The notes beneath the pieces were generated by a model. The model had not been told where the DNA came from and did not search any database. It saw nothing but the letters and a program-made list of their open reading frames with translations. Shown here one piece after another: positions 708 through 53,231 of a stretch of 53,309 bases of DNA. Both the position numbers and the translations under genes were made by a program. Position 1 is the first letter of the stretch, and every line of letters starts with the position of its first letter. Source of the stretch: an uncultured Lachnospiraceae bacterium (GTDB taxonomy: Bacteria; Bacillota; Clostridia; Lachnospirales; Lachnospiraceae); contig CANQSB010000007.1 of NCBI GenBank assembly GCA_947626435.1, positions 78,243 to 131,551 of the forward strand. The letters are read 5' to 3'.

Positions 708-1274
708 TCATCTCTGCTCTAAGCAATCCAAAAACTGCTTATATTTTACATAGCCAGCCAGATTCCCGGCATCATATTGCATCTGCATCATATCCCTGAT
801 AATGCCAAGCCAATCTGTTTTATCAAAATAAGAATACCCGCTGTCAGAATTGTAAATTGCATTTGCACCTGTGAAAGCGCCCTGTGCATCAGGGCATTTC
901 CCACTATCCGCCAAATGGCTGGCATAGGCGAACATATCCAGATAATCCGCACTGTTCGGATCAACCTCTGCGACATCCACCATGCGTTCCGCTGTCACAT
1001 TACCCTCTGCATCCCACGCTTTCACTTTATAAACCGGATGTGACGGATCAAAACCTTTCGGCTTGTATACGGTCACAGAACCGTTTCGATCTGCACTGGA
1101 GCCAATCGACTGCCCGTCTGCCTCGTTGGAAATGTGCAGCGCAAACGAAGTGTTTTGCGTTGCTGCGGTCTTGCCCATGTTTCCCACAAAGCTTGCGCCC
1201 GCTATATTTGCCTTATTTTTTACATTTGTATATTTTGTCTCATAATATCCTGTTGATATTCCATTGATACCCAT
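708..1274 (-). CDS. Hypothetical protein sharing its N-terminus with the 1-599 protein
   Basis: 188 residues from the ATG at 1274, which has GGAGG 8 bases upstream. The open frame extends further upstream, but that extension lacks a ribosome binding site. The initiation region and first codons are almost the same as those of the gene at 599 (MGINGIS versus MAVNGIS), which points to duplication. The middle contains Gly/Ser-rich sequence and a segment resembling an extracellular or beta-rich protein (KVKAWDAEGNVTAERMVDV). The C-terminus is helical with FDKTDWLGIIRDMMQMQ. There are no obvious signal peptide or membrane segments. Function is unknown; it probably belongs to the transcript starting near 2389. 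Confidence 0.7.
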   Translation of the reverse strand: MGINGISTGYYETKYTNVKNKANIAGASFVGNMGKTAATQNTSFALHISNEADGQSIGSSADRNGSVTVYKPKGFDPSHPVYKVKAWDAEGNVTAERMVDVAEVDPNSADYLDMFAYASHLADSGKCPDAQGAFTGANAIYNSDSGYSYFDKTDWLGIIRDMMQMQYDAGNLAGYVKYKQFLDCLEQR

Positions 1275-32684: not shown

Positions 32685-33950
32685 TCAAGGCTGAATTTTT
32701 TCAATCGCAGCCTCAAGGTTTTTTTCAAACACCTTAAATCCGTCCCTATTATTAAATATTTCCCAAACGCCATCCGCGGCATGCACTATAAGGTACATAC
32801 ATTTTGTGATGTTGTCCGCCTCTTCGAGTGTCTCATCGACATCGCATATGCAAAAGGTATTGTCGACATCACTTGCGCAGTGTTCAAGAATATCCCACAT
32901 CAGCTCCGCCATATTGGGGTTTTTGACGGTAAGCCAGTCACTTAATTCATATTCATCTCCCTTTTTGCTTATCTGCAGCACACGCGGTTTCCTCGCCATC
33001 GGATCATCAGGCAAAAACATCATGTGGCTGCGTATTTTAAGGTTTTTGGTTTTGTCAGATTCCTCATCCGTATATTGGCAATATTTCCGGAAATAACCGT
33101 CCTCTCCATACAATATATCCATAAATTTTTCAAACTCATATTCACAGACAAATTCCCCCAAACGCTTGCGTGAATCATTTATATTCACAATCTCATGAAG
33201 TTTTTCGAGCACATTGGGTAAATCCTTACCCCAGTGATATTCAAATTCCATACTCAAGCAAATTTCTTCTATATAGTATCTGCCGTCTTTTTTATAAATC
33301 CGCGAATATTCTTTATGCTTCCAAGTATCCGCCCCCTGTTCGTGGACACAATCTTTTGAGGACATAAGCCTTTTATAGCCTTCCTCCTCATCAAGGCTTG
33401 CGTTGATAATATACAGTGGAACTACGCCAACGCCATTTACAGGACAATTAACTACCTGCGCAAGTATCCTGTTATCTTCTATATGCGGTAAATCATGCAG
33501 TTCGAAACTAAGGTATCTTAAATCTCTCAAATCCACGCCAATCATAATATCTATGTCAAACTCCAAATCCGCTATAAAACGCAAAGTATTGTGGCAAATT
33601 CCCAAACTCTGCCCGCGCATATCCAGTATCATGTTTTTCAACGAAAAATAAATCACCTGAATGCCGAATTTGACACATCTGTCATATGTAAGGATACATT
33701 CTTTAGATGGTTTCGGATACAAATGCGTATCAACACACATAAAAGGATTATCAGGAAACAGGGTTATGCCGAACTTTTCCAAAAATCTCTCCATATATTT
33801 ATTGTACAGAAAATCCTTGTTTTTCTCCATATCATGACAAACCATTTCACAAATAGACACCAGTCCTTCGTCATAGTACTGCGCTACATTTTTACCCTCA
33901 TAGCTTTTCGGCATAAAATCATTATCATCAAAAATCACAAATTTAATCAT
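32685..33950 (-). CDS. Unknown cytosolic protein (421 residues)
   Basis: Acidic, with no signal peptide or membrane helix. It opens MIKFVIFDDNDFMPKSYEG, with a D-D start resembling phosphotransfer or nucleotide-binding proteins but no clear receiver fold. The middle has an amphipathic Phe/Leu/Asp-rich region and the end is EKNLEAAIEKIQP. I do not recognise the family. It is separated from rpmF by a promoter and from tmcAL by about 300 bases, so it probably stands alone. Confidence 0.65.
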   Translation of the reverse strand: MIKFVIFDDNDFMPKSYEGKNVAQYYDEGLVSICEMVCHDMEKNKDFLYNKYMERFLEKFGITLFPDNPFMCVDTHLYPKPSKECILTYDRCVKFGIQVIYFSLKNMILDMRGQSLGICHNTLRFIADLEFDIDIMIGVDLRDLRYLSFELHDLPHIEDNRILAQVVNCPVNGVGVVPLYIINASLDEEEGYKRLMSSKDCVHEQGADTWKHKEYSRIYKKDGRYYIEEICLSMEFEYHWGKDLPNVLEKLHEIVNINDSRKRLGEFVCEYEFEKFMDILYGEDGYFRKYCQYTDEESDKTKNLKIRSHMMFLPDDPMARKPRVLQISKKGDEYELSDWLTVKNPNMAELMWDILEHCASDVDNTFCICDVDETLEEADNITKCMYLIVHAADGVWEIFNNRDGFKVFEKNLEAAIEKIQP

Positions 33951-37295: not shown

Positions 37296-38093
37296 TTAAA
37301 ACTCTACCGCCTGCGACATCTCGCCGCGCTTTGCTATGTAAATCGGAAAATCATCCGCCTTGTACTCATTATCGGACATGGTAATTTCAAGCCTTACAGT
37401 CTCATACGCCAGCTCCGCCAGATTGTTTTCCTGGCTTAAATGCCCGAGAAACACCGTCTTTAAATGGTCGTTTAAAAGGCGACTCAAAAGCCTGCCCGAC
37501 AGTTCGTTTGAAAGATGCCCGCGCTTGCCAAGTATGCGTTGCTTTAAATAATATGGATACGGACCGACTTGAAGCATGTTTATGTCATGGTTTGCCTCAA
37601 GCATAAGCATATCCATCCCCTTTAGGCTCTCCACCGTATACTCGTCATATGTGCCTAAATCCGTGACTATCGCCATTCTGCTGCTGCCGTACTGAAATCT
37701 GTACGCGACTGGCTGCGCCGCGTCATGCGATATTTTCATAGGATTTACCGTGATATCCTTCAAAATCATCTTCTCGTCAGCCGCAACCTCGCAGAAAAGC
37801 GAGGAATCAATCTCGCCCAAACTGCCTATATTTTTAATCGCGTCTATCGTGCCTGCGGTCGCATATATCGGTATGCCGAACTTCCTGCTGATGACGCCAA
37901 GACCGCCTATGTGATCCGCATGTTCATGCGTAATCAAAATCCCGTCTATATCCCTGCATGTAAGCCCCAGACTGTTTAAGCCCTCCGTAATCCTTTTACA
38001 GCTTATCCCCGCATCCACTAAAAGATGCGTCGCCTCTGTACCCACATACACACAATTTCCACTGCTGCCGCTAGCAATACTGCACATTTTCAT
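37296..38093 (-). CDS. Metallo-beta-lactamase-fold hydrolase (YycJ/WalJ-like)
   Basis: 265 residues from the ATG at 38093, 4 bases after the stop of the upstream gene. Metal-binding HEHADHIGGL (about 58), SHDAAQPVAYRF, TDLGT, HLSNEL and LGHLSQENN provide the usual histidines and aspartate. YycJ proteins have been proposed as 5'-3' exonucleases linked to mismatch repair and cell wall signalling. No walRK genes are nearby. GAGG and the short gap suggest coupling to the CoaE-FtsA-like gene. Confidence 0.9.
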   Translation of the reverse strand: MKMCSIASGSSGNCVYVGTEATHLLVDAGISCKRITEGLNSLGLTCRDIDGILITHEHADHIGGLGVISRKFGIPIYATAGTIDAIKNIGSLGEIDSSLFCEVAADEKMILKDITVNPMKISHDAAQPVAYRFQYGSSRMAIVTDLGTYDEYTVESLKGMDMLMLEANHDINMLQVGPYPYYLKQRILGKRGHLSNELSGRLLSRLLNDHLKTVFLGHLSQENNLAELAYETVRLEITMSDNEYKADDFPIYIAKRGEMSQAVEF

Positions 38094-38097
38094 CTGT

Positions 38098-41000
38098 TTA
38101 ACCTCTCCCATGGTATTCTTTCCAGTATACTTCTATCTTGTCTCCATTAAAAAGCTCCTGAGTATACTGCGCATCCTTGCCGTTTACAGTAGTGACAATG
38201 CTTGAACCTCGCTGCGGCGGGTTTTTCGTGTCAAAATCAATATAGTCAAATATATCCACAAAAGCGTAAGTATTCCTGCCTTTCATAACTATAGGCTCAT
38301 TGTTTACTATCACTATGATTTTCTTCGCACCGCTCTCTGTCTCTTTTGGTTCAGGCGCTTTTTGTTTTTCAACCTTTTCGCTTTTTGCCGTCTTGGGAGC
38401 GCTTTCCTTTTTTACTTCCTGCGGGCTTTCCTGTTTTTCCTCTCCGGCATTTTCCTTTTCACCGTCGCCGCTCTTTGCCTTATCCTCTACATTGCCGACC
38501 GGGCTTTCACCTGCGTCAGGCTCTGCCTCAGTAGCAGATGCCTCAGTAGTCTCCTCGGCGCGTGCTTCCTTCTCGGCAGTTTTATTATTCTCCTCAGATG
38601 CCGCTTTTTCTACGGTCTCTCCGGTTTTCTCACTATCTGACTTTTCAAATGCCTTTGCCTTCTCCTCAGCTCGCTTTGCCTCCTCCTCGGCAGCGCGTCT
38701 TGCCTCCTCCTCGGCAATCCTTGCTTCCTCGGCTGCTTTCGCCGCCTCTGCGGCTCTTGCTTCTTCGGCAGCCTTGTATATGTTTTTCAGTTCTATTTCC
38801 TTTTTACTGTTTATGACAACAGTATCATTATTGTTGATTATCGTGCTTTCGTCCGCTTCCTCGCCGTTTACCGTCACAAGCGCATCGTCTACGGCGTAGC
38901 CCATGTATTCGACAAGCTCCTTATATGTGTACGATGAACCTATCGTAATAGTATCGCCATCCTTAATCAGATAATCCTCATTCTCCGTATTGCCGTTTAC
39001 AGTCACCGGCTTTGGCAATTGCATTTCCTTATTATTTATCGTAAGCGTAATCTTACCGTTGAAATCAACAAGGTCCGAAATATGCTCCTGCGCTTCCTTT
39101 CCGATAGTTGACTCCTCTATCACAATCTCGTCATTTGCCTTTATGCTGTGATTCATGTTTACGGCTTCGCCGTTTAAATATATATGCGCGCTTTCGCCGT
39201 ACTCGCCCTTTGTGACGCGATTTTTACCGTTTACCGTATAGCGAAGTTCCTTTCCGCGTCGCGGGAAAAGCCCGTCCTTATTAAACGACGCCTGCATTGC
39301 CGCGTCGACCACTGCAAGCTTATTGTTGTCATAAAGCTTCATCCTGCTGCCGTTGAAGGTAACATGGATAAAGCTGTTGTTCTGGTCAAAGTATGACAGG
39401 CATATGCCTATCGGCGTAATTATCGTAGAGTCCTTCAAACTGCCCTCCGGAAAATCCACGTCCCTCAAAATTTCCTCGCCCCTGAGCGCCACCCTGGATG
39501 GGTCAAGCCCCAGCTCGGACGCTATGATCTCACAGAAACCCGTTATTTTACCGCCGCCGCCGACAACGAACACCGCGCTCGGCGAATTGCCGCCATTGAG
39601 CTCTTTTATTGTCTGCGCCGTAATCTTAGCCATCTTCTCAATCTCAGGACGGCATATCTCCACTACTTTTTTGGCAGAAATCTTCTGCTCAATTCCCATA
39701 ATATCCTCATATGTAATCTCGTCCTGCTGCGTCGCCGCCGTCTTTATCATTTCCGCCGTCGCAAAATCAATAAGGCAGGTTCTTGCAAGTATTTCCGTAA
39801 GCGAATCGCCCGCATGAGGCAGCATGCCAAACGCCACAATGCTTCCGTCGTCCGTAATGGAAATATCCGACGTGCCCGCCCCCACATCAATCATCGCTAT
39901 GTTCAAAAGCCTGAACCTTTCAGGTATCGCCACGCGTATCGCCGCTATCGGCTCCAGAGTGAGGTTTGACACTTTAAGGCCTGCAAGCTCGACCGCGCTG
40001 TATAGACCATCCACCACGTCGTCAGGCAGAAACGTGGCTATCATGTCCGCGCCGATATTTTTCGCCTTGTGGTGCTCAGGCTGCCCCATCCACATGCCGT
40101 TTAAATAATATTTTACTACAGAATAGCCTACGCAGTAGAAATGTATGTCCGTATCGTTATTTTCGTGAAACTCTTGAAATGCCTTCTCTATGCCAAGAGA
40201 CACCAAGGTGCTCATGTCCTCCTTCGTGACATTGCGCTCCTTGTCCAAGTCCATATCAATGTGCAGATTCATAGTCCTGAGCATACGCCCTGCCGCCGCA
40301 ATGCAGACCTCTTCAAATTTGAGATTCGTCTTTGCCTCGATAGCTTCCCTGATATCGGCTATAGTGCGCGCAACCCTGTTGATGTCATGTATCTGCCCGT
40401 CCAACATAGCACGCGTCTGGTGCTGCCTTATCTCCTGTGCCAACACGACAAATCGCTCATCCTGTTTATAGCCTACCGTACCGACCACGTTTCTGGTGCC
40501 GATATCCAGTCCAAATACAAGCTCCTGCCCGCTAATCTGTAATTGCTCCATTTTGCAACCCTCCATTAAATCCCTAATCTGCCTATAGGTTTCCTCTATG
40601 TTACCGTTATTCGTTATGCTTCGCCTGCAATGCTTTCTAAATTCCGCCTCACTAAGCTGCTTTTCCATAATGCTGTCCGCTTTTTTTGCACTATAATGCC
40701 TGTCCCGCACAAGGCGCTGTTTGCGCACATGTTTATCCGCATGTATATACCACAACTCATCCGCAATCAGATCGTAGCGCTCCTCTATCAAAAGCGCCGC
40801 CTCTATAAAGAAAAAGTCAACCTTGCCTTTTTTCCTCTCATAATCTATCTCTTGTATAATATATTTTTTCACTTCGGGGTGAATAATCGCGTTGACTTGT
40901 TCAAGCAGATGCGTATCCCTAAAAATCGCCTCCGCCATCTTTTGCCTGTCAATATTTTTGTCCTTGTCCAATATAACCTCGCTAAGCAAACCGACAAGCC

Positions 41001-41145
41001 TTTCATAGCATGGCTTTCCACGCCGCTCAAGCAGATGCGCCGCCTCGTCCGCCCTTATCACTCTGCATCTGTAATGCGCCTCGATATATGATAGCACCTG
41101 TGTCTTGCCTGCGCCCACTCCACCGGTTATTCCTATAACAATCAT
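38098..41145 (-). CDS. CoaE dephospho-CoA kinase fused to an FtsA-like protein
   Basis: One 1015-residue frame. Residues 1-198 are CoaE: Walker A GGVGAGKT (8-15), RADEAAHLL, IIHPEVKKYI, and the RHYSAKKADSIMEKQL lid; this catalyses the last step of CoA synthesis. Residues 199 onward are an FtsA/PilM-like actin-fold protein: GLDIGTRN (212-219), later IDVGAGTSDIS. Then come beta-grasp-like repeats, an Ala/Glu-rich coiled coil (about 785-850), a charged low-complexity linker and a final small domain. M199 has GGAGGG 7 bases upstream, so it may also be an independent start. The neighbour polA-coaE order is standard. Confidence 0.8.
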   Translation of the reverse strand: MIVIGITGGVGAGKTQVLSYIEAHYRCRVIRADEAAHLLERRGKPCYERLVGLLSEVILDKDKNIDRQKMAEAIFRDTHLLEQVNAIIHPEVKKYIIQEIDYERKKGKVDFFFIEAALLIEERYDLIADELWYIHADKHVRKQRLVRDRHYSAKKADSIMEKQLSEAEFRKHCRRSITNNGNIEETYRQIRDLMEGCKMEQLQISGQELVFGLDIGTRNVVGTVGYKQDERFVVLAQEIRQHQTRAMLDGQIHDINRVARTIADIREAIEAKTNLKFEEVCIAAAGRMLRTMNLHIDMDLDKERNVTKEDMSTLVSLGIEKAFQEFHENNDTDIHFYCVGYSVVKYYLNGMWMGQPEHHKAKNIGADMIATFLPDDVVDGLYSAVELAGLKVSNLTLEPIAAIRVAIPERFRLLNIAMIDVGAGTSDISITDDGSIVAFGMLPHAGDSLTEILARTCLIDFATAEMIKTAATQQDEITYEDIMGIEQKISAKKVVEICRPEIEKMAKITAQTIKELNGGNSPSAVFVVGGGGKITGFCEIIASELGLDPSRVALRGEEILRDVDFPEGSLKDSTIITPIGICLSYFDQNNSFIHVTFNGSRMKLYDNNKLAVVDAAMQASFNKDGLFPRRGKELRYTVNGKNRVTKGEYGESAHIYLNGEAVNMNHSIKANDEIVIEESTIGKEAQEHISDLVDFNGKITLTINNKEMQLPKPVTVNGNTENEDYLIKDGDTITIGSSYTYKELVEYMGYAVDDALVTVNGEEADESTIINNNDTVVINSKKEIELKNIYKAAEEARAAEAAKAAEEARIAEEEARRAAEEEAKRAEEKAKAFEKSDSEKTGETVEKAASEENNKTAEKEARAEETTEASATEAEPDAGESPVGNVEDKAKSGDGEKENAGEEKQESPQEVKKESAPKTAKSEKVEKQKAPEPKETESGAKKIIVIVNNEPIVMKGRNTYAFVDIFDYIDFDTKNPPQRGSSIVTTVNGKDAQYTQELFNGDKIEVYWKEYHGRG

Positions 41146-41186: not shown

Positions 41187-43952
41187 TTATTTAGCCTCGT
41201 ACCAATCCGTCCCTGTATGCAAATCTATCTCCAGCTTGACCGCAAGCTCGCATACATTTTGCATTTCGTCCGACAGTATCTTTCTGACCTGCTCGACCTC
41301 GCCCTCTCTTACTTCTATCAGGAGCTCATCATGTATCTGCAGGATAAGCTTTGACTTCAAGCCATTTTTCTTTAAAGCGTCATACACGTTTACCATGGCA
41401 AACTTGATGATATCGGCGGCGCTCCCCTGAATCGGCGAATTCATTGCCACGCGCTCACCAAACGAACGCTGCATATAGTTTGATGATTTCAGTTCAGGTA
41501 TAGGACGACGCCTGCCAAACATTGATTCGCTGTAGCCTTTTGCCTTTGCGTCTGACACCAGCTTGTCCAAAAAGCGCTTAATCTCAGGATAAGTCTTGAA
41601 ATACTCATCAATATATACTTTCGCTTCCTTCTGTGAAATGCTCAAATCCTGACTGAGCCCAAACGAACTGATACCGTAGACGATGCCAAAATTTACCGCT
41701 TTGGCGTTTCTGCGCTGTAAATCTGTGACTTCCTCAAACGGCGTGTTGAATACCTTTGACGCCGTAATCCTGTGAATGTCCTCGTCCATTTTATACGCCT
41801 CAATGAGCTGCTCGTCGCCCGACATATGCGCCAGCACTCTAAGCTCTATCTGCGAATAATCCGCATCCATAAAGATACATCCCTGCTGTGGCACAAACAC
41901 TTTTCTGATACGCCTGCCGAGCTCTGTACGCATCGGAATATTCTGCAGATTCGGCTCTGTAGAGCTGAGCCGCCCTGTGGCTGTGATTGTCTGGTTAAAG
42001 CTCGTGTGTATCTTATTTTCGCCGTCTATAAATGCCGCAAGCCCATCGGCGTATGTCGATTTAAGCTTTGCAAGGCCCCTGTATTCAAGTATTTCCCCGA
42101 CGATAGGGTGTACGGGCACAAGCTTTTCAAGCACGTCCACCGCTGTTGAATAGCCCGTCTTTGTCTTTTTTCCACCAGTCAGCCCCATCTTGTCAAAAAG
42201 TATCTCGCCAAGCTGCTTGGGCGAATTGATATTGAAACTTGTGCCCGCGTGGTCGTAAATTGACTTTTCAAGCTCATTAATTCTGCCTGAAAGCACATCG
42301 CCATAAGCCTTCAATTCCTCGGGCTTCACCATGATGCCCTCTTTTTCCATATCGAAAAGGACATAGGACAGTGGCATTTCCAACTCGCAAAAAAGCCTGT
42401 GCATGCCGTTTTGCCTTAACGCTTCATCCAAGACGGGCTTTGCCTTTCTGAGCGCATATGCCTCGCCCGCAAGGTAGTGTATGCATTCTTCCTTTTTGCT
42501 GCGGTACACTGTGGCAAAGTCCGACTTTCCGAATAGCTCGCCCCATGTCTGCAGCGAAATGTTTAGATATTCGCCCGCTACGTCTTCAAGCTCATAATCG
42601 CTCTTTAGCGGATTGATAAGGTAGGCCGCTATTTTACAGTCAAATAAGCCCCTGGTAAGCTCATGGGCGGAAAGCTCTCTGTCAGCCTTTTTGGAAATTA
42701 TCACGTCATAGTCGGTCTTTACATCAAAGCATGCCAAATCTGCTTTTTCCGCCAAAACAACGTCCTGTATTCTTTCTATAATAAAGTCACGCGAAAGCTC
42801 GCCTCCCGTTTCAACAACGTATACCTTTTGGCCGCTGCTGTCTTTTTCGCCCGCAAGGCTTAAAATAAGCGCGAACTCCTCCTTTTTTTCCTCAAGCTGT
42901 AGAAACATCTGCCCGCTTGCCGATGAGCCGAAATCACCGGATGAGCTGTCCTTGATATTCACAAGGCGGTACGCCGCGCTCTCGCCCGCGCATATTCTTT
43001 CAAAAAGCGTACTCGCGTCCTCCTTGCTTTTGACATATATGATTTGAAGCTCTTTGTCCGCTAAATCAGTGCCTGCGCTCCGCGCATTCTGCTCAAACCT
43101 GCTTAAAATATTTTTAAATGAAAGCTGTTTGAATAACTCATATGCCTCCGGCGTAAACAGATTGCCAAGCTTAGCCTTTTCATACGAAAAGTCAATGTCG
43201 GCATTTACGTCAATCGTGGCAAGCGTCTTGCTCAAATCCGCAAGCTCCCTGTTTGCCGCAAGGCTTTCCCTGATGCTCTTTTTGGTAATCTCGGAAATCC
43301 GTTCATATATGGCGTCAATAGAGCCAAATGTCATCATAAGCTCCCTTGCCGTCTTTTCACCGATTTTTGGCACTCCGGGAATATTGTCGGAAGAATCCCC
43401 CATGAGCGCTTTCAGCTCTATAAACTGAAGCGGCGTCACGCCATATGCCGCCTCTACGTCTTTGGCATAGTAATCCTCAATCTCGGTCTTACCGCCTTTC
43501 GTCTTTGGGATGCGGATTTTTATATGCTCGGACGCAATTTGGAGCAAATCCCTGTCGCCTGAGACGAGCGATACATCCATGCCGTCGCGCTCCGAACGCT
43601 TGGCGATAGTGCCCATTATGTCGTCCGCTTCAAAACCAGCTTTTTCTACGATATGGACACGCATGGCAGCAAGTACGTCCTTTATCACTGGCACCTGCTC
43701 ATGCAGCTCGTCAGGCATTGGCTTTCTTGTGCCCTTATATTCGCTGTAAAGCTTGTGCCTAAATGTGGGCGCGCTTACGTCAAACGCCACTGTGAGATAT
43801 TCGGGCTGCTCCTCGTCAAGTATTTTAAATAAAATATTTAAAAAGCCAAAAATCGCGTTTGTGTGAAGACCTTTTGAATTTGTCAGCATCGGCACGCCGT
43901 AAAAAGCTCTGTTTAATATGCTGTGACCGTCAATCAATACTATTTTGCTCAT
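41187..43952 (-). CDS. polA: DNA polymerase I
   Basis: 921 residues. 5'-nuclease domain (1-290) with MLTNSKGLHTNAIFGF and VSGDRDLLQI. The middle domain has no clear DxE exonuclease motif, so proofreading is probably absent as in other Firmicutes. Polymerase domain (about 545-921) with DADYSQIELRVLAHMSGD, RRNAKAVNFGIVYGIS and QIHDELLIEV. It fills gaps and replaces RNA primers. The coaE-fusion gene follows after 41 bases. Confidence 0.97.
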   Translation of the reverse strand: MSKIVLIDGHSILNRAFYGVPMLTNSKGLHTNAIFGFLNILFKILDEEQPEYLTVAFDVSAPTFRHKLYSEYKGTRKPMPDELHEQVPVIKDVLAAMRVHIVEKAGFEADDIMGTIAKRSERDGMDVSLVSGDRDLLQIASEHIKIRIPKTKGGKTEIEDYYAKDVEAAYGVTPLQFIELKALMGDSSDNIPGVPKIGEKTARELMMTFGSIDAIYERISEITKKSIRESLAANRELADLSKTLATIDVNADIDFSYEKAKLGNLFTPEAYELFKQLSFKNILSRFEQNARSAGTDLADKELQIIYVKSKEDASTLFERICAGESAAYRLVNIKDSSSGDFGSSASGQMFLQLEEKKEEFALILSLAGEKDSSGQKVYVVETGGELSRDFIIERIQDVVLAEKADLACFDVKTDYDVIISKKADRELSAHELTRGLFDCKIAAYLINPLKSDYELEDVAGEYLNISLQTWGELFGKSDFATVYRSKKEECIHYLAGEAYALRKAKPVLDEALRQNGMHRLFCELEMPLSYVLFDMEKEGIMVKPEELKAYGDVLSGRINELEKSIYDHAGTSFNINSPKQLGEILFDKMGLTGGKKTKTGYSTAVDVLEKLVPVHPIVGEILEYRGLAKLKSTYADGLAAFIDGENKIHTSFNQTITATGRLSSTEPNLQNIPMRTELGRRIRKVFVPQQGCIFMDADYSQIELRVLAHMSGDEQLIEAYKMDEDIHRITASKVFNTPFEEVTDLQRRNAKAVNFGIVYGISSFGLSQDLSISQKEAKVYIDEYFKTYPEIKRFLDKLVSDAKAKGYSESMFGRRRPIPELKSSNYMQRSFGERVAMNSPIQGSAADIIKFAMVNVYDALKKNGLKSKLILQIHDELLIEVREGEVEQVRKILSDEMQNVCELAVKLEIDLHTGTDWYEAK

Positions 43953-48086: not shown

Positions 48087-49877
48087 TTATTTGCACAAAA
48101 TTCTTTGAGCTACCACCACAGTATAGTCATCCGTATTATATGCGATGCCTGTCTTTGTGAAATGATTCTTATGCCAGAAATGCTCTGCCTGCGGATTACC
48201 TTTTACCCATCCAAGCCGAATGTACAAAAGCCCAAAATCTGCGAGATAACGGCACAGCTCATCTATTATCCTGCTGCCGACGCCGATATTCTGAACTGAC
48301 ACAGCTGTCATAAAGAAACCTATAAATGCCGTTTTTTCATCAGGGTACGCCATAATTAAATCCATCACTGCAATCAGTTTTTCCCCTTCATAATACCCTA
48401 TGTAATATTTGTCTGTCATTTCTTTGTTCGGAGGCAACGCTTTCATATCCTTAGCAATGCTCTGTTCTGTCACAAACGGTGGACAATATTGATAATATAA
48501 AGCATTTTTGCTGCACAGCGCATATATGTCCCCGACATCCGCTTCACCCATGCAGCGCACATTGTAAAAATCAGAAAATTGCGATACATCCATTCTCACA
48601 ACAAACGATATCACTGCATCGTCCGCCTCGCGCATATAAGGGTACACATGTCCGTAATCAGCATAATATATCAACATCGCCCAGTATACCTCATATCCGC
48701 CCAAATCATATTCTTCCTTTGTCGGGAAATAAGAACCGCAGCCGTTTGTATAGCCATTAAAATAAAAATAAGGATTTCTTAAAAGCCGCTCTGTTTCGAG
48801 CGCAAACTCCACCATAGTTTCATTGGGTATACCGCACAGACACCAATCGCCAACGCAGAAATATTGTATTTCCAAATGTTCCTCCTGTACGGAAATTCCC
48901 TTGTTTTGCAGACGTTCAATCTCATTCAGCCACTTTTTACCGTCTATACCGCAGAATTTCCGCGCGTCATCCGCTATTTTACGCGCTTCAGCCATACTTG
49001 GAACCTTTGACTGCAGCGTTATATATTTTGAATAAGCGCCTGTCCTAACGCTGCGTTTTGTGCATATTTTGTCAAATACATTTTCAACGCTGTCAAATAC
49101 TTCCTGCGCCATTTTATCCAACGCATCTTCGCAGTTTATATATCCTTCTCCCTGTCCGTCAACAGGTACAAAAGAGGCATTATAATATTTAGGAGCAATG
49201 TTTCCCGCCGAGCCTTGGACAACCATCACCGGACAATGGTACTTTTCCTTAAAAATTTTTCTGACAGCGCCAAAATAGTCAGCCGAAATTAAATAATTGT
49301 CACTTTTTAAGACATTGCAATGTGCTGTCATGCGCAGTATAATCAGCCGCAGCTTATCACTGTCTCCCGAATGGATTTTAAGTATACCGACCCGTCGGTC
49401 AATTTCGGCACCGGTATCACGCCTTTTTACGCCAATGACCGCTTCGGCATTACCCCAGCCCACCGCAGCTTCACTCATAGATGACAGCGCTTTTTCGGCG
49501 GCTTGACAAATTTTCGTGCAAAGCCCGGCGTAATACTCTTTTTCGATATCAGCATTAGGAGCCGAATGAGTATGTGAAAATGAGAGCATTACCTTTTCTT
49601 TGGGTGCTTTGATAATTGCTCCAATCTTATCCCTGAGCATATCCGCCTCTTTTTTATTAAAGCCGATACTGTCTATAGTAACTAAGCAGCATATCTCGTC
49701 GTTTTCCCAGACACATACCTGCGCTGCCAGGCAGTCCAGTATACCCTTTGAAATATTGTCCGCGCGGTTAAATCCAACTGTGGTAACAGGAGCGTCCGGC
49801 GTAATGTCAGTTTCGGCAAATCCCATTCTAAGCTTTGACAGGGAGCACATGTCCCTTAATCCCTCTTCGTTTTTCAT
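48087..49877 (-). CDS. Neutral ceramidase-like domain fused to a GNAT acetyltransferase
   Basis: 596 residues, ATG at 49877 with a GGGAG site. Residues 15-430 resemble neutral/alkaline non-lysosomal ceramidase: MGFAETDITPDAPVTTVGF, SFSHTHSAPN (metal His), ISADYFGAV and IPNETMVEF (metal Glu region). The usual GDxSP serine motif reads GNIAP, so classical amidase action is uncertain. Residues about 445-596 are a GNAT fold, with an acetyl-CoA loop near NIGVGSRIIDELCRYL (about 530-545) and WHKNHF later. No signal peptide. The combination is unusual; substrate unknown. Confidence 0.8.
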   Translation of the reverse strand: MKNEEGLRDMCSLSKLRMGFAETDITPDAPVTTVGFNRADNISKGILDCLAAQVCVWENDEICCLVTIDSIGFNKKEADMLRDKIGAIIKAPKEKVMLSFSHTHSAPNADIEKEYYAGLCTKICQAAEKALSSMSEAAVGWGNAEAVIGVKRRDTGAEIDRRVGILKIHSGDSDKLRLIILRMTAHCNVLKSDNYLISADYFGAVRKIFKEKYHCPVMVVQGSAGNIAPKYYNASFVPVDGQGEGYINCEDALDKMAQEVFDSVENVFDKICTKRSVRTGAYSKYITLQSKVPSMAEARKIADDARKFCGIDGKKWLNEIERLQNKGISVQEEHLEIQYFCVGDWCLCGIPNETMVEFALETERLLRNPYFYFNGYTNGCGSYFPTKEEYDLGGYEVYWAMLIYYADYGHVYPYMREADDAVISFVVRMDVSQFSDFYNVRCMGEADVGDIYALCSKNALYYQYCPPFVTEQSIAKDMKALPPNKEMTDKYYIGYYEGEKLIAVMDLIMAYPDEKTAFIGFFMTAVSVQNIGVGSRIIDELCRYLADFGLLYIRLGWVKGNPQAEHFWHKNHFTKTGIAYNTDDYTVVVAQRILCK

Positions 49878-50010: not shown

Positions 50011-51186
50011 TCAATGATGAAACAGCCTAATCCCTGTAAAGCACATAGCCATTCCGTACTTATTGCATGTCGCAATAACATTGTCGTCGCGGATAGAACC
50101 GCCCGGCTGCGCGATATACTTCACGCCGCTCTTATGCGCTCTTTCGATATTGTCGCCAAACGGGAAAAACGCGTCGGAACCAAGTGACACATCTGTCATT
50201 TTGTCAAGCCACGCCCTTTTCTCCTCTCGCGTAAATACTTCCGGTTTTTCCGTAAAGAAATTTTCCCATACGCCGTCAGCCAACACATCCATATAATCGT
50301 CGCTCATATAAACGTCAATCGTATTGTCCCTGTCCGCGCGCCCTATATTTTCCTTGAACGGAAGCTTAAGTACCTTTGGCGACTGGCGCAGGAACCAGTT
50401 GTCCGCTTTGTTGCCCGCAAGCCTCGTGCAGTGTATCCTCGACTGCTGCCCCGCACCGATGCCGATTGCCTGACCGCCCTTTGTATAGCAGACAGAGTTT
50501 GACTGCGTATATTTTAGCGTAATCATCGCAATCGCAAGGTCTATGCGCGCCTGCTTTGTAATCTCCTTGTTGTCCGTCACTACATTTGCAAAAAGCTCGT
50601 CATTAATCACAAGCTCATTCCTGCCTTGCTCAAAGGTCACGCCGAAAACGTCCTTGTATTCTACAGGATTGGGCTTGTAATCAGGATTGATTTTGATTAC
50701 CGCATAATTGCCCTTTTTCTTCGCCTTTAAAATTTCAAGCGCCTCGGGCTCATATCCTGGCGCTATGATGCCGTCTGAAACCTCGCGCTTAATAAGCTTT
50801 GCCGTAGATATGTCGCACACATCGGAAAGCGAGATAAAATCGCCAAACGAAGACATTCTGTCCGCGCCCCTCGCCCTCGCATACGCGCTCGCCAAGGCTG
50901 AAAGCTCGCCCATATCGTCCACCCAGTAAATCTTTCTCTCAATCTCCGTAAGCGGAAGTCCTACTGCCGCGCCCGCAGGCGATACATGCTTAAATGATGT
51001 GGCTGCTGGAAGTCCTGTCGCTTTTTTGAGCTCGCTCACAAGCTGCCAACCATTAAACGCATCAAGAAAATTGATGTAGCCTGGCTTGCCGTTTAGCACT
51101 TCAATCGGAAGCTCCCCATCCTTCATAAAAATCCTTGACGGTTTTTGGTTTGGATTGCAGCCGTATTTTAATTCTAATTCTTTCAT
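50011..51186 (-). CDS. AICAR transformylase (PurH C-terminal half alone)
   Basis: 391 residues that correspond only to the formyltransferase half of PurH; the IMP cyclohydrolase N-terminal domain is missing. KHVSPAGAA (Lys-His catalytic), QSNSVCYTKGGQAIGIGAGQQSR, and PGGSIRDDNVIATC are diagnostic. It formylates AICAR with 10-formyl-THF, the penultimate purine step. Its missing partner activity is supplied by the PurO-type gene next to it (51413-52126). Confidence 0.93.
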   Translation of the reverse strand: MKELELKYGCNPNQKPSRIFMKDGELPIEVLNGKPGYINFLDAFNGWQLVSELKKATGLPAATSFKHVSPAGAAVGLPLTEIERKIYWVDDMGELSALASAYARARGADRMSSFGDFISLSDVCDISTAKLIKREVSDGIIAPGYEPEALEILKAKKKGNYAVIKINPDYKPNPVEYKDVFGVTFEQGRNELVINDELFANVVTDNKEITKQARIDLAIAMITLKYTQSNSVCYTKGGQAIGIGAGQQSRIHCTRLAGNKADNWFLRQSPKVLKLPFKENIGRADRDNTIDVYMSDDYMDVLADGVWENFFTEKPEVFTREEKRAWLDKMTDVSLGSDAFFPFGDNIERAHKSGVKYIAQPGGSIRDDNVIATCNKYGMAMCFTGIRLFHH

Positions 51187-51412
51187 ATTAATTCCTCTCT
51201 ATACTTTCTCATATATTTTGCAGAAAAAACCTTTATTTTAGCTGTTTGTGCAATGGTTTGTAAAGTTTCCGGCAATGGCTCACATTAATTAATAGGCGAA
51301 AACCTTGTCATTTCCAGTGTATGCACCCCTGTTTTCCACTCTAAACTCTATGCTTTTGCTTTGTGAAGCCACAAGTAATTAAGAAAAATGCCTGCCCTTT
51401 GCCGTTTACGCA

Positions 51413-52126
51413 TTATTCATTTTTATTAAAAATCTTCGTCTCATATTTTCCGGTCTGAATATCTATATAACGAATGAAAAGCGACACCTTGTTGTCCTCA
51501 TTAAGGCTTGTCCACACAAGATTCGCAAACTCCTCCATATCGTCCGGAATCTCAACGCGCTTAGGCTCGCCCTCAAAGCTTGGCAAGGGATTGCCATCGC
51601 CCATATATGTATGTATGAAATGCCCCTCGCCCGCTACAGGATTGCTGTATGCAAATGTAAACCTGTCACACGCGTCAGGATTTCCGTCGCTGCTCTTTAA
51701 TATCGACATAGCATAATTATATGTGCCATTTTCAATATGAAGTATTCCCGAAATGCGCGGCGTGTAGTTTGGCGCGTCGGGCTCAAATTCCCTCGTCCTA
51801 AGCGCCTGCTCAAAGGTCTGCTGCTTGTCCATAAGGTCATAAATAGTGTCAGTCTGGTCTCCGTTTGTCACAATCGTCTTGTTGCCAAGCACTCGGACAG
51901 GCGCGTAAATTATGAGGCTCGGATCGCTAAGCTTCGACGGATCAAACGCCTGTGTGCGTATACCCTCGCCGTCCTCGACAAATACGCGGTTTCTGCTGTT
52001 CTCGCTTCTGCCCATAATAAAATAGGCTATTGCCGCCTTTTTGCCGTCCTTAGTCTTGCCGATGACGATACCCCTGCCCGGGTATGCGTTCCCTTTTAGT
52101 TCCTGTTCCAATGATAGCATCTTCAT
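51413..52126 (-). CDS. IMP cyclohydrolase, PurO type
   Basis: 237 residues, ATG at 52126 with AAGGGG upstream. Resembles the archaeal-type IMP cyclohydrolase: NAYPGRGIVIG, AYFIMGRSENSRNRVF, DPSLIIYAPVR and RTREFEPDAPNYTPRISG, all characteristic of the PurO family. It closes the ring of FAICAR to IMP, complementing the adjacent transformylase. Gap of about 226 bases between the two. A hairpin-forming GCACTGCC/GGCAGTGC repeat lies in its 5' leader (52143-52182). Confidence 0.88.
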   Translation of the reverse strand: MKMLSLEQELKGNAYPGRGIVIGKTKDGKKAAIAYFIMGRSENSRNRVFVEDGEGIRTQAFDPSKLSDPSLIIYAPVRVLGNKTIVTNGDQTDTIYDLMDKQQTFEQALRTREFEPDAPNYTPRISGILHIENGTYNYAMSILKSSDGNPDACDRFTFAYSNPVAGEGHFIHTYMGDGNPLPSFEGEPKRVEIPDDMEEFANLVWTSLNEDNKVSLFIRYIDIQTGKYETKIFNKNE

Positions 52127-52574: not shown

Positions 52575-53231
52575 CTACGCCTCCTCCCACGCAATACCCC
52601 GCATTTTTTCAAGTCTGCGCATTATCACATCAAACGCCCTCCTGCTCTCAGGCAATTTCTTATCCGCCATTTTTACAAATTTATCCGTATCAATCAAAAT
52701 TCTCTTGCCAAACCTAATCTGTTCCTCAAACCTTATCTGAAACGGTTTCGCCATTACCCGCGACAGATTTTCCTCAATGCTTACATCCATCGGATATGAA
52801 ACCTCGTCCGAAAGGCAGGCGGCTCCATTGTCAAAAATAGGTCCCACCGTATATTTGCCATCTTTTTCCAAAAGAATTATATTGTTAAAATGCCTGTCTT
52901 CATTATATGTTATCGAATCCAAATACAAAATTCTATTAATATAATCTGTAATGTCTATATGGCACATATCATAAACTGCATCTATCAGTTCATCATAATG
53001 TATGCTGTACGGCAACATATTCATTTCAAGTATCTTTCCTATTGTAATCTCCTCAACTCCACCAGACAAATAATTCTCTGAAAAACAACCATAACCAAGA
53101 AAAACTCCGTCCTCGCACACAGCACATCTTTTGTACTCAACAAAAGCCTCTATATCCGTACACTTTAAAAGTGTTGATACCATTTCCTCGGCAATCCCTT
53201 CATACCCCAGATTGTCCAGTTTGATGTACAA
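52575..53231 (-). CDS. HipA-like Ser/Thr kinase, N-terminally truncated
   Basis: About 218 residues from a TTG at 53231, which lacks a ribosome binding site. The kinase core is intact: DSITYNEDRHFNNIILL (N-x-D-R-H-x2-N catalytic loop, about 105-120) and PIFDNGAACL. The N-terminal lobe that HipA-like proteins normally have, including the ATP-binding part, is absent. Seven codons upstream an in-frame TGA appears and the sequence changes character, consistent with an insertion. Possibly non-functional. Confidence 0.65.
   Translation of the reverse strand: MYIKLDNLGYEGIAEEMVSTLLKCTDIEAFVEYKRCAVCEDGVFLGYGCFSENYLSGGVEEITIGKILEMNMLPYSIHYDELIDAVYDMCHIDITDYINRILYLDSITYNEDRHFNNIILLEKDGKYTVGPIFDNGAACLSDEVSYPMDVSIEENLSRVMAKPFQIRFEEQIRFGKRILIDTDKFVKMADKKLPESRRAFDVIMRRLEKMRGIAWEEA

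Follow-up and report, generated by a model that had tools for sequence, protein, structure and literature searches.

A recurrent coaE–ftsA-like gene fusion in Lachnospiraceae, attributed to stop loss in a tightly spaced gene pair, with a candidate internal start for the FtsA-like part

The window analysed here, the whole stretch of 53,309 nucleotides from an uncultured Lachnospiraceae bacterium, holds a single ATG-initiated frame of 1015 codons without internal stop that joins two unlikely partners, a metabolic kinase and an actin homologue of the FtsA type (Table 1). The locus raises the question whether this is a genuine fused gene, how it was formed, and whether the second protein may still be produced alone. 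The answer that we consider likely is an evolutionarily fixed fusion, formed by stop loss and carrying the only CoaE over the cut-off in the assembly, with a free FtsA-like product probably made as well.

Table 1: Features of the fusion gene and of its conserved neighbours in the window.
Feature	Position	Strand	Basis
coaE–ftsA-like fusion ORF	38098..41145	(-)	open reading frame, 1015 codons
CoaE (dephospho-CoA kinase) part, residues 1–198	40552..41145	(-)	Pfam/TIGRFAM matches
FtsA-like part, residues 199–1015 (817 aa)	38098..40551	(-)	profile matches and translation
FtsA-type region, about 209–560, within FtsA-like part		(-)	profile alignments
ThiS-type match, 732–778, in FtsA-like part		(-)	domain search
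Charged E/A/K-rich stretch, about 780–935, in FtsA-like part		(-)	translation
Conserved C-terminal end of FtsA-like part; Ub-Mut7C (ubiquitin-like) match, 986–1007		(-)	domain search
Shine–Dalgarno-like GGAGGG inside coaE 3' end	40559..40564	(-)	sequence; CCCTCC on (+)
TGC (Cys197) where unfused relatives have the coaE TGA stop	40555..40557	(-)	junction alignment
ATG, Met199, matching the start of the stand-alone FtsA-like gene of relatives; candidate internal start	40549..40551	(-)	junction alignment
polA, conserved upstream neighbour	41187..43952	(-)	ORF list and locus comparison
Metallo-beta-lactamase-fold gene, conserved downstream neighbour, overlaps fusion end by 14 bases	37296..38111	(-)	ORF list, locus comparison

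CoaE is the last enzyme of coenzyme A synthesis. The original prediction had put the end of this domain at about residue 198, with an FtsA-like protein following, and the domain matches agree with this division. Residues 1–198 exceeded both curated CoaE cut-offs: TIGR00152, 117.6 bits (cut-off 65.55); PF01121, residues 2–184, 107.5 bits (cut-off 27); nearest solved structure, 2if2. P-loop residues G8, G9, G11, G13 and K14 and the conserved D33, whose roles we assume to be those usual for CoaE, were invariant in 10 fused proteins. Unlike an ordinary CoaE, the window protein bears an 817-residue C-terminal partner. CoaE joined to extra sequence is likewise found in PRK03333.1 (NCBIfam, 395 positions), 6n39 (solved, 415 residues) and 2f6r (bifunctional coenzyme A synthase); the partners there are presumably an actinobacterial C-terminal domain (PRK03333.1/6n39 kind) and mammalian PPAT (bifunctional coenzyme A synthase), not an FtsA-like protein. 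A DNA glycosylase/dephospho-CoA kinase cluster is given in PMC3711429.

Assignment of the second part to FtsA was based on profile alignments. TIGR01174 (ftsA) aligned over 210–554 with 87.9 bits, below the equivalog cut-off of 175.85; PF14450 (FtsA) matched 417–550 with 40.3 bits, over the cut-off of 31.8. Using phmmer and a 17-row profile, FtsA structures 7q6d, 7q6g and 7q6f were obtained as top matches, followed by EutJ, PilM or MreB; hhalign against E. coli FtsA gave a probability of 98.5 over 321 columns (profile 1–332 on FtsA 9–347); PilM_2 matched all of the profile members too (17/17). CoaE residues were left in 2 of the 17 rows of the underlying alignment (A5), which was judged harmless for the FtsA part. 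The alignment runs through what we take to be the 1C subdomain of FtsA, and no SHS2/1C model was among the Pfam matches. The stretch DVGAGTSD, invariant in the 10 fused proteins, has the pattern DxGxGTxD, presumably the actin-family phosphate motif. The ftsZ match lies on contig C36 and the fusion on C7, so that the FtsA-like part is not beside ftsZ, a neighbourhood that we assume to be usual for ftsA. The part is named FtsA-like, not FtsA, because it falls below the equivalog cut-off and is away from ftsZ. It resembles FtsA in aligning along the FtsA fold and differs from it in a long charged and ubiquitin-like C-terminal extension and in its place in a polA–coaE locus. No protein over the FtsA equivalog cut-off was found in any of the 10 fused genomes (0/10); in the window genome FtsZ and SepF gave matches over their cut-offs, and the fusion thus points to a little-studied FtsA-like family. 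With a score below the FtsA cut-off, its role in division is putative. For C. difficile, PMC12548448 records no ftsA ortholog.

The route by which the two parts entered one frame was read from relatives of the same genus. The search covered 38 genomes; 30 junctions were aligned, five further ones (G008, G024, G026, G029, G031) were judged from the match table, and G023, G027 and G034, which gave no readable junction, were left out. Fused among the 35 readable junctions were three: the window genome (G000); G033, 95% identical to the window, with TGC at the stop position; and G035, 77% identical, with ATC at this position. Among the 30 aligned rows, five (L005, L008, L009, L011, L013) read exactly ATG GGG GAT TGA AGG ATG, and three more were one to three bases off; in relatives of this pattern the TGA is in frame with the next ATG, and the end of coaE contains the ribosome-binding site of the FtsA-like gene. 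Other relatives have ATGA-type overlaps or spacers. The junction of the window, ATG GAG GGT TGC AAA ATG, is unchanged in length relative to the TGA pattern. The original prediction had traced the 1015-residue fusion to a lost stop and pointed to related strains for comparison; this is borne out by the junction alignment, in which the in-frame TGA of unfused relatives stands against TGC in the window and a sense codon in G033 and G035. At sequence level the comparison shows that an in-frame TGA between coaE and the ftsA-like gene became a sense codon in the window lineage, the gene now encoding one 1015-residue protein with CoaE at its N-terminus and the FtsA-like part at its C-terminus. Readthrough or recoding of the TGA is not needed in the unfused relatives because an ATG with a Shine–Dalgarno (SD) sequence comes after it. 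One exact-pattern scan for a viral origin of the junction gave 0 matches and carries little weight.

To assess the wider distribution, 299 genomes sampled from the family were examined; among the matches listed, 128 of these genomes reach 2e-74 or better with an FtsA-like match (one split match included). Fused ORFs were confirmed in seven more genera (G239, G213, G113, G140, G297, G086, G157); together with G000, this brings the verified fusions to 8 of these 128 genomes, among the matches listed. Of 28 family loci fetched (L032–L059), 7 were fused and 21 separate; 14 more family genomes with long or uncertain frames, fetched as possible missed fusions, yielded 0 fused genes, two of them (G050, G319) showing no coaE match upstream of the FtsA-like gene; the rest of the 128 were excluded from the match table alone, their frames being too short for a fusion or containing internal stops. 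The fusion is the minority state in family and genus. A scan of named genomes gave 26 fused loci of 80 among the best matches listed, a set that was queried with the fused-protein alignment, is biased towards pairs that are fused or in frame, and shares loci with the other sets; some of the fused records are not marked as metagenome-assembled. All loci with both genes (n = 138, duplicates counted) comprised 36 fused and 102 separate ones. On a quick FtsA-core tree (138 rows, 115 of them distinct; branch support by SH-aLRT without bootstrap; biased sample) the fused/separate label required 9 changes, at least 6 of them being forced by well-supported branches (shuffle mean 31.6); fission may account for some. 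The window, G033 and G035 formed one clade, joined by L060 (row identical to that of G035); on the same tree 12 fused rows group together with support, and Butyrivibrio sp. NC2002 (L113) and G157 (L057, long branch) fall outside the window clade, beside separate genes. Judged by these gene sequences, the fusion is real and recurrent, not unique to the window organism. A locus from a record titled Alistipes sp. (Bacteroidota; L119) was placed among the Lachnospiraceae on the tree; the record is probably a mislabelled metagenome bin.

The surroundings of the pair are conserved. The upstream neighbour was named polA from its sequence, a name that we take as correct, and the downstream metallo-beta-lactamase-fold gene is presumably of YycJ type. 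Among the best matches listed, 78 named loci have 900 bases of room upstream, and all but two of these (76; not L103 and L104) carry polA there on the same strand, as do both named loci with less room; the metallo-beta-lactamase-fold gene was downstream in 73/73 named loci with room. In the relatives examined coaE adjoins the ftsA-like gene, and in many of them the genes overlap or the FtsA-like ribosome-binding site is within the coaE end. FtsA-like genes at greater distance were examined in eight fetched loci (L143–L150). Those of other families of the order (L146–L149) have polA, coaE, a solute-binding-protein-like gene and the FtsA-like gene in matched order; L150 has polA, the solute-binding-protein-like gene and the FtsA-like gene, with no coaE match; L143–L145, distant homologues inside the family, gave no coaE or polA match within the fetched stretch. 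The extra gene of L148, the sole copy scanned, is SBP_bac_5 (Pfam), and the other copies match it at 19–24% identity; a solute-binding-protein match was found in 0/80 named loci (1e-8, one query). In G144 the FtsA-like gene and coaE are on different contigs. The simplest history would be loss of the solute-binding-protein-like gene, adjacency of coaE and the ftsA-like gene, overlap, and then repeated fusion; living intermediates display the route from separate through overlapping genes to one fused gene, apparently taken more than once. In G298 (L144:861-8716) a spoIIIA-type operon (Spore_III_AA, Spore_III_AE, SpoIIIAH) is immediately followed by a distant FtsA-like gene of 878 aa; the sporulation role that this suggested was dropped, as the distant homologues L143 and L145 sit among other genes.

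Both halves of the fused gene are under purifying selection, as estimated from 11 pairs (9 fused, 2 unfused): dN/dS of CoaE was 0.031–0.116 (finite for 9 pairs, saturated for 2), and that of the FtsA core 0.010–0.059 (11 pairs; rough, dS being >1 in most). In many of the pairs dS is near saturation. In each of 10 fused genomes a single CoaE exceeds the family cut-off and a single FtsA match spans almost the whole model, the remaining actin-type matches being partial (window genome: two frames, 338 and 343 codons). Since the fused CoaE is the sole copy over the cut-off in the window assembly, the fused enzyme presumably works.

Attention was then given to the linker. On the coding strand GGAGGG is followed by 7 bases (TTGCAAA) and the ATG of Met199, position and spacing being as originally described. 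The SD duplex energy is -9.8 at this internal site vs -4.5 at the primary coaE start; local folding is predicted to leave the ATG unpaired and GGAGGG partly paired. A linker ATG with an SD duplex of -4.5 kcal/mol or better is present in 28 of 33 distinct fusions, and one of -7 or better in 24 of 33, in agreement with the proposal that the old ribosome-binding site has been retained, in the window and in most distinct fusions alike. Counted per ATG, 39/53 linker ATGs vs 134/606 other in-frame ATGs of the same ORFs reach -4.5 or better, and 24/53 vs 18/606 reach -7 or better, in genes that are related, not independent, so that P-values of such a test are overstated. Of the 29 fusions with any linker ATG, 19 have a stronger SD at the internal site than at the primary start (one tie), a comparison that uses the best of several linker ATGs and favours the internal site. 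When synonymous codons were resampled at fixed amino acids, 2 of 29 internal sites had a stronger SD at P < 0.05 (median P 0.44), with a mean shift of -1.7 kcal/mol vs -0.2 in 89 control ATGs (0 at P < 0.05). In 16 hand-picked fused pairs, the aligned SD-preceded Met was kept in 9/9 close pairs (other aligned linker residues, 137/187 identical) and on both sides in 1/7 deeper pairs (L103/L104). The linker start is missing in 5 of the 33 distinct fusions (L033, L057, L093, L117, L131), and therefore the free form is not generally needed. In L093, which lacks an internal ATG, a strong SD (-10.0) precedes a linker Ile codon; it may be a relic or mark a non-canonical start.

Since the original ribosome-binding site and ATG survive, with a predicted strength above that of the primary site, internal initiation would probably yield some 817-residue FtsA-like protein; a second, free product is plausible, and the internal site is a relic that may still be able to work. 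The window fusion possibly shares with SpaO/SpaOshort and Cas11b an architecture in which one ORF gives two products. Internal in-frame initiation leading to a C-terminal isoform is described in PMC13059759 (SpaO/SpaOshort) and PMC11899642 (Cas11b).

How far the fusion matters to the cell is a further point. In an in-frame overlapping pair it is one mutation away, a single substitution TGA to TGC being enough, and it may have arisen nearly neutrally. The reading in which it has no function of its own, adjacent co-translated genes in one frame occasionally losing the stop, both proteins tolerating the linker and the internal ATG being a decaying relic, is nearly an even call, leaning slightly towards no. 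It accords with fusions that are repeated but scattered on the tree, with the five fusions devoid of an internal start, with the mostly non-significant synonymous test, and with the solute-binding-protein-like gene that separates the pair in four loci of other families, which argues that tight adjacency is not generally needed; persistence of the clade of 12 fused rows, with strong purifying selection on both halves in the pairs tested from this clade (L077/L096, L082/L084, L035/L108, L088/L089), speaks against it.

Functional coupling, in which an FtsA-like filament recruits or regulates CoaE, or the filament responds to the CoA/ATP state, with internal initiation controlling how much fused relative to free protein is made, is rather unlikely by our estimate; the tie between CoA synthesis and a cell-division-like actin protein in the original prediction is of this kind. 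It would account for the repetition of the fusion on the tree, the sole copies of both functions in fused genomes and the enrichment of linker starts with an SD mostly stronger than the primary one (19/29), but the FtsA-like gene is parted from coaE in G144 and has no upstream coaE match in G050, G319 and L143–L145. Speculatively, fused and free forms could co-assemble, CoaE being carried on an actin-like filament; that CoaE is such a cargo, and that the fused:free ratio sets its load and links CoA supply to growth or division in bacteria lacking a protein over the FtsA cut-off, we regard as improbable.

Formation of two separate proteins after all, by proteolysis in the linker or by production of mostly FtsA-like protein from the internal start, is held to be similarly doubtful: the internal SD is the stronger one in the window (-9.8 vs -4.5), but CoaE free of its tail is impossible from an internal start and could come only from cleavage, and L057 is almost without a linker. 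The window does come from a 98-contig draft assembly, but a sequencing or assembly error that deleted a stop, the circumstance under which the original prediction would have failed, is ruled out for practical purposes by independent fused genomes in the genus, the family sample and the named genomes, G033 and G035 being other assemblies, the latter having another codon in place of the stop, and many further records containing fused genes.

The preferred reading, a fixed fusion by stop loss with a probable free product, has an ordinary mechanism (stop loss in an overlapping pair) and unusual partners; no description of a coaE–ftsA-like fusion was found among the papers listed in searches of the open-licence literature on CoaE, FtsA, gene fusion and Lachnospiraceae.

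Elsewhere in the window, the ORFs at 32685–33950 (421 aa) and 52575–53231 (-) (218 aa) gave no Pfam match at E 0.001. A composite 596-aa frame at 48087–49877 (-) combines a partial neutral/alkaline ceramidase match (325–396) with a GNAT acetyltransferase domain (485–573), and at 50011–52126 (-) a separate AICARFT-type ORF (391 aa) adjoins an IMP_cyclohyd ORF (237 aa), presumably of the archaeal PurO type.
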